Below are positions 57,960 through 61,626 of a stretch of 64,000 bases of DNA, piece after piece. The notes under the pieces are model-generated. The model was not told the DNA's origin. It did not search any database and worked only from the letters and a program-made list of their open reading frames with translations. Made by a program: the position numbers and the translations under genes. The DNA comes from an uncultured Chlamydia sp. (GTDB lineage: Bacteria; Chlamydiota; Chlamydiia; Chlamydiales; Simkaniaceae). The stretch lies in the NCBI GenBank assembly GCA_946127115.1, contig CAMGYI010000002.1:451868-515867 (forward strand). The letters are read 5' to 3'. Each line of letters begins with the position of its first letter. Position 1 is the stretch's first letter.

Positions 57960-57987
57960 TTGTCAAATAACCCACTCATGATATAAT
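57960..57987 (+). promoter_or_regulatory. Promoter of ATP/ADP translocase A
   Basis: TTGTCA (57960-57965), 16 bp, TATAAT (57982-57987). The same TTGTCAAATAACC...ACTCATG...TATAA sequence occurs before translocase B at 59844, so the site is kept between duplicates, which supports its use. Confidence 0.7.
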
Positions 57988-58021
57988 GCTGAGGCATACA
58001 CACACTCATACGGGAATATCC

Positions 58022-58057
58022 ATGTTAAAAAAGATTTTGAGGCGAGACCAGTTGTGA
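58022..58057 (+). CDS. 11-residue upstream ORF, translocase A leader
   Basis: ATG 58022 gives MLKKILRRDQL and TGA 58055-58057. The translocase B leader encodes MLKKLLRRDQL, with synonymous changes in both Arg codons (AGG/AGA and CGA/CGG). GGGA lies 7 bp before the ATG. Two bp after the stop, CTGAG-(6)-CTCAG (58060-58075) can pair, then A7 G TTC T7 follows. This resembles a leader peptide with attenuator. Function unknown. Confidence 0.5.
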   Translation: MLKKILRRDQL

Positions 58058-58159
58058 AACTGAGCTACCCCTCAGAAAAAAAGTTCTTTTTTTCTCACCG
58101 AACCTCTGCTGCAGTGTCTCTTGGACTTTTACAATCACCCAATTTCATCTTGGGGTGCT

Positions 58160-59746
58160 ATGCCCTCAAAAAGTAGTGAAGAATTCAGTCGTTGGCGCCT
58201 CTACCTATGGCCTATTCATCGATGGGAAATGAAAAAATTTGTCCCTCTCCTGATTCTCTACGCTCTAATCTGCTTTAACTATAATCTACTGAAATCCGCA
58301 AAAGATGCCCTTGTGATTACTGCTAATTCTTCAGGAGCAGCTGTCCTCCCATTTATTAAGATCTGGGTGATTCTTCCTATGGCTCTTTTAGTCACTTATC
58401 TTTTCACCCGTCTTTTCAATCGTTTTTCTCAAGAAAGGGTTTTTTACATCATGATTGGTGGCTTTTTGTTCTTTTTTGCCCTTTTTGCTCTCGTTCTTTA
58501 CCCCCTAAGGGATGTTATCCATCCCCATGCGCTTTGTGATCAGTTAGAGGCCACTGCCCCAAAATGCCGGGCCATTATTGCAATGTTCCGCAACTGGTCT
58601 TTTACCATTTTCTACGTCGTGTCAGAACTCTGGGGAACAGCTATTATGTCGGTCCTTTTTTGGGCTTTTGCTAATGAAGTAATGACCGTTAAGGATGCTA
58701 AACGATTCTATGGAATCCTAGGAATTGGAGCCAATATCTCTGCGATCTTTGCCGGGCAAATTGCAATTCTTGTCTCTGGACAGATGTTCGATCTTTCCTT
58801 CATTTTCGGAGCAGATGCGTGGGGACAAAGTTTGGGACTTGTCACAACCATTGTGATCTTTACAGGGCTCCTGACTATGGGTTTTTTCAAATGGTATAAC
58901 ACCCGTATAGTCCACCGCGATCCAGCCATGAAAGAGGAACACGCCAAGAATCACGCCAAACGAAAAAAAGTCAAAATGGGGATGCGAAAAAGCTTTGCTT
59001 ACCTTGCAAAATCAAAATATCTCCTTTGCATAGCAGTCCTTGTAATCGGGTTCAATATTGCCATCAACATGATTGAAATCACTTGGAAAGACCAAATCAG
59101 CATCCTCTATCCAAACCCCAATGACTATAATGCTTACATGGGAAGCGTTGTTAAATCAATAGGATTCCTTTCCACCTTTGTTGCAATCTTTGTGAGCGGA
59201 AATGTGATTCGAAAAATGGGGTGGGCTTTTAGCGCTCTTATTACACCTGTTTCCCTACTACTTACTGGAATCTTTTTCTTTGGAATTCTCCTCTTTAAAG
59301 ACAATCCTTCCTTGATCTCATGGAGTACAGCTCTAGGCTTTACGCCTCTTGCTATCGGAGTCCTTTTTGGAACAATTCAAAATGTTATTTCGCGAACCTG
59401 CAAATACACATTATTCGATGCCACAAAAGAGATTTCATTCATCCCTCTCAGCTCCGAGTCAAAGTTTAAAGGGAAAGCCGCAATCGACGGGGTAGGATCT
59501 CGTCTTGGGAAAACTGGGGGATCGATTGTCCACGGAGGACTGCTCATGGTCTTCGGAAGCGTTTCCCTTAGCACACCTTTCGTTGGTATTTTCCTTCTCC
59601 TTGTTGTCTTTGGCTGGATCGTTGCCGCCAAATCCCTTGGCCGCCAATTTAGCCGCCTCACAAAGCAGGATGAAAAAATTGATATCGATGAAGAAGAATT
59701 GGCAACCATTAAAAAGCCTACTACTCAAGGTCTCTCTACCACCTAA
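58160..59746 (+). CDS. ATP/ADP translocase (nucleotide transport protein), copy A
   Basis: A 528-residue TLC/NTT-family carrier with about 12 helices. It has FSRWRLYLWPIHRWEMKKFV, then PLLILYALICFNYNLLKSAK, DALVITANSSGAAVLPFIK, and LFWAFANEVMTVKDAKRFYG, and in the C-terminal half AINMIEITWKDQI, LFDATKEISFIPLSSESKFK, GKAAIDGVGSRLGKTGGS, all as in chlamydial Npt1. Such proteins swap host ATP for bacterial ADP at the inner membrane. ATG 58160 gives the same length as copy B. Followed by copy B after 293 bp. Which of the two does ATP/ADP exchange and which general nucleotide import cannot be told. Confidence 0.93.
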   Translation: MPSKSSEEFSRWRLYLWPIHRWEMKKFVPLLILYALICFNYNLLKSAKDALVITANSSGAAVLPFIKIWVILPMALLVTYLFTRLFNRFSQERVFYIMIGGFLFFFALFALVLYPLRDVIHPHALCDQLEATAPKCRAIIAMFRNWSFTIFYVVSELWGTAIMSVLFWAFANEVMTVKDAKRFYGILGIGANISAIFAGQIAILVSGQMFDLSFIFGADAWGQSLGLVTTIVIFTGLLTMGFFKWYNTRIVHRDPAMKEEHAKNHAKRKKVKMGMRKSFAYLAKSKYLLCIAVLVIGFNIAINMIEITWKDQISILYPNPNDYNAYMGSVVKSIGFLSTFVAIFVSGNVIRKMGWAFSALITPVSLLLTGIFFFGILLFKDNPSLISWSTALGFTPLAIGVLFGTIQNVISRTCKYTLFDATKEISFIPLSSESKFKGKAAIDGVGSRLGKTGGSIVHGGLLMVFGSVSLSTPFVGIFLLLVVFGWIVAAKSLGRQFSRLTKQDEKIDIDEEELATIKKPTTQGLSTT

Positions 59747-59843
59747 TTTTGTTGTATTATCAACATTTTCCCGTGCTGGAATAGATCGCAAATTAAAATT
59801 AGAAAACTTCATTCTTCTCTCTAAAATTTGCGTACAATTCTGA

Positions 59844-59871
59844 TTGTCAAATAACCTACTCATGGTATAAC
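59844..59871 (+). promoter_or_regulatory. Promoter of ATP/ADP translocase B
   Basis: TTGTCA (59844-59849), 16 bp, TATAAC (59866-59871). Homologous to the copy A promoter. The final T of the -10 is C here, so it should be somewhat weaker. Confidence 0.65.
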
Positions 59872-59904
59872 ATCGGGGGTAGACATATTCCATGCAGGAC
59901 AGTA

Positions 59905-59940
59905 ATGTTAAAAAAGCTTTTGAGACGGGACCAGTTGTGA
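59905..59940 (+). CDS. 11-residue upstream ORF, translocase B leader
   Basis: ATG 59905 to TGA 59938-59940 encodes MLKKLLRRDQL, with AGGA 5 bp upstream. The hairpin CTGGG-(6)-CTCGG (59943-59958) starts 2 bp after the stop, as in copy A, with each A-T pair of copy A replaced by G-T while the stem is kept. A T7 run follows. The start of the translocase lies 99 bp after the stop, 102 bp in copy A. Confidence 0.5.
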   Translation: MLKKLLRRDQL

Positions 59941-60039
59941 GACTGGGCTGCGTCTCGGAAAAGAAGTTCTTTTTTTCTCATCGAGAATTCAAGGCTTTCT
60001 GCAATTCGCTACAATTACGCAGTTTCATGCTGGAGGACC

Positions 60040-61626
60040 GTGTCTTCCAAAGATAGTGAAGATTTTAGTCGTTGGCGCCTCTACCTATGGCCTATTCATC
60101 GTTGGGAAATAAAAAAGTTTGTCCCTCTTCTGATTCTCTATGCCCTGATCTGTTTTAACTATAGCCTCCTAAAAGCAGCAAAGGACGCTCTCGTAATTAC
60201 CGCTAACTCTTCTGGAGCGGTTGTTATTCCTTTCATTAAGATCTGGGTGATTCTGCCCATGGCCCTCTTGGTCACGTCTCTTTTTACTCGCCTTTTTAAC
60301 CGATTTTCTCAGGAAAAAGTTTTTTACATTATGATCGGGAGCTTCCTAGCTTTTTTTGCCGTCTTTGCTCTCGTTCTCTACCCTCTTAGGGATGTCATAC
60401 ACCCACACACATTTTGTGACCAACTAGAGGGAATAGCACCAAAACTTCAAGGACTTATTGCAATGTTTCGCAACTGGTCCTTTACTCTTTTCTATGTGAT
60501 GTCAGAACTTTGGGGAACAGCCATCATGTCAGTCCTTTTTTGGGCCTTTGCCAATGAAATCATCACTGTGAAAGATGCCAAACGGTTCTACGGGATTCTA
60601 GGGGTTGGAGCAAACGCTTCCGCTATTTTTGCCGGGCAAATTGCAATTTTTGTCTCAGGAAAACTATTCGACCTTTCATTCTTTTTTGGAGAAGATGCTT
60701 GGGGACAAAGCTTAGGCCTTGTGACAACCATTGTAATCTTCACAGGGCTTCTATCCATTGGAATCTTTCGATGGTACAACACTTGTGTGATCCGCCAAGA
60801 TCCAACCATGAAAGAAGAACACGCGAAAAATCAAACTGAGCGGAGAAAGATCAAAATGGAGATGCGGAAAAGCTTTGCCTATCTCACAAAATCAAAATAC
60901 CTCCTTTCTATAGCAGCCCTAGTGATCGGCTTCAACCTTGCCATTAACATGATTGAAATTATTTGGAAGGACCAGATTAGTTTCCTATACCCCAATCCTA
61001 ATGACTTCAATGCATACATGGGAAGTGTTCTCAGGTGGATAGGGTTTCTTTCCACATTTATCGCTATCTTTATCAGTGGAAATATGATCCGTAAGATGGG
61101 ATGGACCTTTAGCGCCCTGATTACTCCTGTTGCTCTTCTAATCACAGGAGCCTTTTTCTTTGGCATTATGCTGTTTAGAGAAGATCCTGCTCTCATTAAA
61201 TGGAGCGCCGTCCTTGGCTTTACACCACTTGCCTTAGGGGTCTTCTTTGGAACAGTTCAAAATGTGTTCTCGCGGGCATGCAAATACACCCTCTTTGATG
61301 CAACGAAAGAAATTTCATTTATCCCGCTCAACTCCGAATCAAAATTTAAAGGAAAAGCTGCCATCGACGGAGTGGGATCTCGCCTTGGAAAGACAGGAGG
61401 ATCGATTGTCCACGGGAGCCTTCTAATGGTCTTTGGGAGTGTTTCCCTTAGCACACCTTTTGTTGGTATCTTTCTTCTTCTTATTGTCCTTGGCTGGATC
61501 GTTGCTGCACAATCCCTTGGCCGCCAATTTAACCGTCTCACGAAACAAAATGAAAAAGTTGATATCGACGAAGGAGAACTGGCAGCCGTTGAAGACACAG
61601 CTACTCAAAAGGCCTCAGTCACTTAA
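60040..61626 (+). CDS. ATP/ADP translocase (nucleotide transport protein), copy B
   Basis: A 528-residue protein, by eye identical to copy A at most positions, including FSRWRLYLWPIHRWEIKKFV, FWAFANEIITVKDAKRFYGI, AINMIEIIWKDQISFLYPNP and EISFIPLNSESKFKGKAAID. Differences concentrate in loops (residues 128-142, 248-285) and the acidic C-terminal tail. It starts at GTG 60040, behind GGAGG, not ATG. A recent tandem duplication, kept intact. The two may differ in nucleotide taste. Confidence 0.93.
   Translation: MSSKDSEDFSRWRLYLWPIHRWEIKKFVPLLILYALICFNYSLLKAAKDALVITANSSGAVVIPFIKIWVILPMALLVTSLFTRLFNRFSQEKVFYIMIGSFLAFFAVFALVLYPLRDVIHPHTFCDQLEGIAPKLQGLIAMFRNWSFTLFYVMSELWGTAIMSVLFWAFANEIITVKDAKRFYGILGVGANASAIFAGQIAIFVSGKLFDLSFFFGEDAWGQSLGLVTTIVIFTGLLSIGIFRWYNTCVIRQDPTMKEEHAKNQTERRKIKMEMRKSFAYLTKSKYLLSIAALVIGFNLAINMIEIIWKDQISFLYPNPNDFNAYMGSVLRWIGFLSTFIAIFISGNMIRKMGWTFSALITPVALLITGAFFFGIMLFREDPALIKWSAVLGFTPLALGVFFGTVQNVFSRACKYTLFDATKEISFIPLNSESKFKGKAAIDGVGSRLGKTGGSIVHGSLLMVFGSVSLSTPFVGIFLLLIVLGWIVAAQSLGRQFNRLTKQNEKVDIDEGELAAVEDTATQKASVT

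Follow-up and report, generated by a model that had tools for sequence, protein, structure and literature searches.

What is the leader in front of the ATP/ADP translocase genes of a chlamydial genome for, and which of its parts are maintained? ATP/ADP translocases are central to chlamydial energy parasitism. The window we analysed, 64,000 nucleotides (nt) of an uncultured Chlamydia sp. of the family Simkaniaceae, is part of a 1.9-Mb genome, to which Simkaniaceae metagenome-assembled genomes are the nearest named relatives in the collections, and contains two tandem TLC-family ATP/ADP translocase genes (npt) downstream of pgk. Copy A (58160..59746) and copy B (60040..61626, with a GTG start) both encode TLC ATP/ADP transporters (PF03219), and they lie on the forward strand, like all features of the window described below. 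Each copy is preceded by a leader with the same order, namely a promoter-like element, an 11-codon upstream open reading frame (uORF1), about 100 nt and the npt start. The original prediction for this DNA was that the uORF1 peptide and an RNA hairpin downstream of it are both under constraint, as in attenuation or ribosome arrest. A conserved, probably translated leader open reading frame (ORF) that controls npt is what stands of this proposal, while a conserved hairpin and control by attenuation or arrest were not supported. We propose that a relay of translationally coupled, overlapping leader ORFs ties the translation of npt to that of the leader, a reading based on sequence comparison to which we assign a probability of roughly 0.6.

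A second reading frame in the leader

The distances between the uORF1 ATG and the npt start are 66, 129, 135, 138 and 147 nt in the leaders of the genus. All of these are multiples of three, which made us suspect that the leader is coding. Read in the -1 frame with respect to uORF1 and npt, the leader stays open throughout and encodes a second ORF of approximately 37-43 codons, ORF2. In copy A, uORF1 (58022..58057; MLKKILRRDQL, peptides being given up to their stop) is followed by ORF2 (58054..58176; VKLSYPSEKKFFFSHRTSAAVSLGLLQSPNFILGCYALKK), which has a GTG start and overlaps uORF1 by 4 nt (GTGA) and npt by 17 nt. The same two overlaps are found in copy B, where uORF1 encodes MLKKLLRRDQL (59905..59940) and ORF2 encodes VRLGCVSEKKFFFSHREFKAFCNSLQLRSFMLEDRVFQR (59937..60056).

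This arrangement is shared by the genus leaders. ORF2 starts with GTG or TTG in 16/16 leaders (TTG in G001a), and the overlap of this start with the uORF1 stop is 4 nt (GTGA) in 13 of them and 10 nt in the other three. In these three, the uORF1 TGA has mutated, yet the ORF2 GTG is retained. The overlap between ORF2 and npt ranges from 11 to 23 nt and is usually 17 nt, the exception being G004b, where ORF2 ends 7 nt short of the npt ATG. Two leaders, L013 (G008) and L032 (G009), have a uORF1-to-npt distance of 66 nt, which is 69 nt below the usual, and encode an ORF2 of 17 codons with both overlaps retained. A search of ORF2 against Pfam returned no family above the cut-off.

A few nt 5' of the ORF2 start there is a purine-rich stretch (GAGG or an equivalent), a putative Shine-Dalgarno (SD) sequence. 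In copy A this is GAGGCGAG (58039..58046), which overlaps the Arg codons of uORF1, and in copy B it is the weaker match GAGACGGGA (59922..59930). The canonical anti-SD CCTCCTT is present in the genome. The purine-rich TTGAGGCGAGG that encodes the uORF1 Arg codons (AGG CGA) is at the position expected for the SD of ORF2, and this predicted SD accounts better for the conservation of the Arg codons than a constraint on the peptide does. The downstream elements of the original prediction, a hairpin and an A-rich/T7 tract, are present as letters; most of these letters are ORF2 codons (...SEKKFFFS...), and the second frame had been overlooked. In copy A, the A-rich/T7 tract corresponds to the EKKFFFS codons of ORF2 (58075..58095).

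Stop codons in the ORF2 frame were found in one of 14 full-length genus leaders (G004b), compared to 14/14 and 9/14 for the other two frames. Neutral evolution was simulated from the real sequences under the Hasegawa-Kishino-Yano (HKY) model, with site-specific rates and with gaps kept, on both the npt topology and the leader's own tree. In these simulations about ten of the 14 leaves gained an ORF2 stop, and one or none did so in 3/3,900 runs on the leader-derived tree. Since the site rates were drawn from the same alignment, the test takes local, slowly evolving sites into account. The four length changes in the leader are all net multiples of three, which by our estimate would occur by chance about once in 80 cases. 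In codon models, the EKKFFFS block had an omega of 0.257 in the ORF2 frame, compared to 0.65 and 2.2 in the other frames; outside this block, ORF2 is loosely constrained. We infer that the open ORF2 frame is under stronger selection than the peptide it encodes, consistent with a device that moves ribosomes.

The retention of the frame also bears on whether the leaders are simply recent copies without function, as the original prediction had allowed. The leaders of copies A and B are 78% alike over about 143 nt, as recent tandem copying would predict. However, the leader is conserved in 11 congeneric genomes, including those without tandem copies, and its frame retention is non-neutral. Moreover, the A and B copies of G000, G002 and G007 form separate clades in the npt tree, showing that the tandem pair arose before these species diverged. 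Recent functionless copying is thereby refuted, and we consider it barely credible.

A proposed relay from uORF1 to npt

In the proposed relay, ribosomes would load on uORF1 at its SD (AGGA) and A-rich start (ATGTTAAAAAA), and translation of uORF1 would end at the TGA that is fused to the start of ORF2 (GTGA). While on uORF1, the ribosome would open a local stem-loop holding the SD of ORF2 (GAGGCGAGG, within uORF1) before passing to ORF2. Translation of ORF2 in the -1 frame would then carry ribosomes over the SD and start of npt. Both uORF1 and ORF2 would accordingly be translated, and the effect of the leader on npt would be mainly positive, through termination-reinitiation or opening of the ribosome-binding site (RBS), and possibly also through shielding from Rho. 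The leader peptides are probably largely dispensable, except for EKKFFFS. Among overlapping co-directional genes, starts and stops are most often spaced by an NTGA overlap (-4) (PMC12548453).

A weak consensus stem-loop with modest support was found at 58038..58074 of copy A, in which 58038-58042 pairs with 58070-58074 and 58049-58053 with 58058-58062. In the consensus fold, the end of uORF1 (TTGAGG) pairs with CCTC(A/G), so that the GTG of ORF2 falls within the loop and its SD partly within the stem. When the leaders were folded individually, the SD of ORF2 was paired to a greater extent than the leader on average in 16/16 folds, and the SD of npt was not notably occluded.

Similar layouts occur in other genera of Simkaniaceae. 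ORF2 GTG starts were found in G018, G013 and G016 (-1 frame) and in G023 (GTGA, +1 frame). G015 has a TTG and an ATG just 3' of the uORF1 stop, and in G017 and G026 a TTG overlaps two different uORF1 stops that arose from a 1-nt indel. In G014 and G021 the leader ORFs are fused as a single ORF. Shuffle p-values of single leaders combined to a Fisher p of 1.3e-4 over eight lineages, which are not fully independent. We predict that small ORFs have been overlooked in many Simkaniaceae annotations, including that of G018.

The layouts in other genera also help to judge programmed -1 frameshifting, which would use the heptamer A_AAA_AAN at uORF1 codons 2-4 to produce a fused uORF1-ORF2 product. The phase of the heptamer is as required in 15/16 genus leaders, with an SD-like AGGA upstream, and the -1 frame is open from the heptamer onward. 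However, the heptamer is absent in G007A (TTG AAA AAT) and in other genera that retain ORF2, while G018 and G016 have -1-frame stops upstream of the ORF2 GTG. In addition, the natural fusions in G014 and G021 retain LRR-like residues that such a shift would skip. Frameshifting may occur within the genus but would not account for the layouts across the family, and we consider it quite improbable as the main explanation.

Several observations weigh against a translational relay. Covariation in the stem-loop over the ORF2 RBS is weak (24/500 shuffles for cells paired). The omega of the whole ORF2 is 0.775, close to those of the other frames (1.03 and 0.73), with npt at 0.089; coding selection on ORF2 therefore rests on frame retention and one motif. 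Shuffle p-values for single leaders are modest, from 0.02 to 0.49 (0.02-0.12 for the other-genera lineages), and several order-level relatives outside the family show no clear layout of this kind. Finally, coupling efficiency drops with larger overlaps in reporter tests (PMC12548453), so that the 17-nt overlap between ORF2 and npt is not optimal and ORF2 could dampen npt. A repressive ORF2, whose ribosomes would cross the npt start and hold translocase synthesis low or conditional, agrees with both this drop and the maintenance of the 17-nt overlap in most leaders. Conversely, npt has a good SD, and the spacing between the ORF2 stop and the npt ATG in G004b is favourable to coupling. On balance, a repressive role appears unlikely, but it is a serious alternative for the step from ORF2 to npt.

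The relay may also be a sensor that adjusts the translocase level to how fast uORF1 and ORF2 are translated, or to the ATP/GTP or charged tRNA available for their translation, with EKKFFFS as a regulated pause or a membrane-targeting micropeptide. We regard this extension as speculative and rather doubtful. If true, energy import would be controlled through coupled translation, and a whole chlamydial family would share this control.

uORF1 conservation and the leader hairpin

The synteny of pgk and npt is retained in most of the order-level genomes examined, providing a clean set of orthologues. For both copies, the original description holds for the promoter-like element, the 11-codon ORF with its TGA stop, the A-rich/T7 tract and the npt start. 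The promoter-like element is TTGTCA-16-TATAAT in copy A (57960..57987) and TTGTCA-16-TATAAC in copy B (59844..59871), and it is kept across the genus leaders. The position of uORF1 and the SD-like GGGA/AGGA upstream of it are also the same across the genus.

We searched 11 congeneric genomes for the uORF1 DNA pattern ATGTTAAAAAANCTTTTGAGGCGAGG, allowing up to three mismatches. This yielded 15 matches in ten of the genomes, all upstream of npt, and none for a control pattern read backwards. The eleventh genome, G009, has a diverged uORF1 (MLKKLLRWCP). Its leader, L032, also contains a miniature inverted-repeat transposable element (MITE)-like insertion of approximately 200 nt with terminal inverted repeats (GGAGCTGGGCAAAAATAACT...AGTTATTTTTGCCCAGCTCC) between the TATAAT and uORF1, and the remaining leader is intact. 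Relatives of uORF1 in other Simkaniaceae encode MFNFFLRRG, MFKIFLRRS, MFNRFLRQG, MFLLYLSQGAL and a peptide beginning MTQKFLRRG.

We rejected an N-terminal extension of npt by a uORF1 in the same frame, as at least one stop lies between the two in every genus leader. In L020 (G024), the copy starting at 1377 has a leader frame (KKKLFRREQL...) that continues without a stop into npt, and the uORF1 position lacks an ATG. This frame may be an N-terminal extension of npt in that lineage.

The hairpin at the centre of the original prediction, with a 5-6-5 layout, is located at 58060..58075 in copy A. It was tested twice as a conserved structure: 74% of cells pair, and its covariation, one of the checks that had been proposed, was not above that of shuffles. 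A comparison of the regions upstream of npt in relatives, likewise proposed, revealed that uORF1 is kept in the genus and that the hairpin is missing in several relatives. Both hairpin and T-tract are deleted in G008 and G009 and lost in G010, and all three retain uORF1. A stem formed by A7 and T7 was also considered (3/500 shuffles for cells paired) and rejected, as slid versions were nearly equal and low complexity suffices to explain it. An Rfam search of the leader gave no match up to E=1.

These results bear directly on leader-peptide attenuation or ribosome arrest, in which translation of uORF1 would select between hairpins and thus set npt transcription or translation. In its favour are the strong conservation of uORF1 and the overlapping alternative pairings of TTGAGG with CCTCAG and of CTGAG with CTCAG. 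Against it stand the absence of covariation in the 5-6-5 hairpin and the persistence of uORF1 where hairpin and T-tract have been lost. There is no GC-rich hairpin directly followed by a T run, since AAAAAAAGTTC separates the hairpin from the T run. For arrest, conserved C-terminal residues at a fixed position are missing: the uORF1 C-terminus varies among leaders (QL, QLWY, KSCY, SQ or CP), as does the position of the stop. The two Arg codons have no tie to nucleotide transport and are replaced by Lys, Trp or Gln codons in some relatives. Moreover, attenuation or arrest leaves the open ORF2 frame unexplained. We therefore consider this explanation unlikely. The npt leader illustrates how an unrecognised reading frame can be taken for a conserved hairpin.

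Known systems and other npt loci

Coupled leader ORFs are already known. The closest in layout to the proposed relay include uof-pqsR of Pseudomonas aeruginosa (PMC8395346), where the gene is translationally coupled to a short ORF upstream of it, the RBS of this short ORF being held within an inhibitory structure. That system consists of one upstream ORF that is opened by the small RNA PhrS and targets a regulator, whereas the npt leader has two ORFs and precedes a transporter gene. In mgtQ-mgtB of Salmonella (PMC8092293), a short ORF 5' of a transporter gene promotes its translation, and alternative stem-loops overlap the short ORF. This system differs in that mgtQ is intergenic within an operon, needs ribosome-destabilising acidic codons and is not known to be followed by a second overlapping ORF.

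The GTGA overlap between uORF1 and ORF2 has the same standard spacing as NTGA overlaps coupled by termination-reinitiation (PMC6728339, PMC12548453). The npt leader differs in that its upstream members are leader ORFs of tiny size and rapid evolution, and in that its second overlap spans 17 nt. It has been proposed that leader genes raise expression by reinitiation, with a short ORF delivering ribosomes (PMC4833913). That study was a statistical survey in which the signal for Chlamydiae could not be judged, while the npt leader represents a specific, conserved two-step case. Trp-type attenuation shares with the npt leader a short leader ORF and potential hairpins, but the npt leader has no terminator, no pathway-matched run of regulatory codons and no conserved hairpin.

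No report of leader-ORF control of ATP/ADP translocase genes was found in the open-access literature searched, which most subscription papers fall outside. Within this literature, a conserved two-step overlapping relay before a transporter of energy parasitism is undescribed.

Two npt paralogues examined in the genome of the window did not have the leader arrangement. Upstream of one npt paralogue (L068; G000 C1:287100-288200), at least three near-identical copies of a repeat of approximately 75 nt (CTCACGAAGACCGACAAGATAATCAAACTC...) are arranged head to tail directly 5' of the gene.

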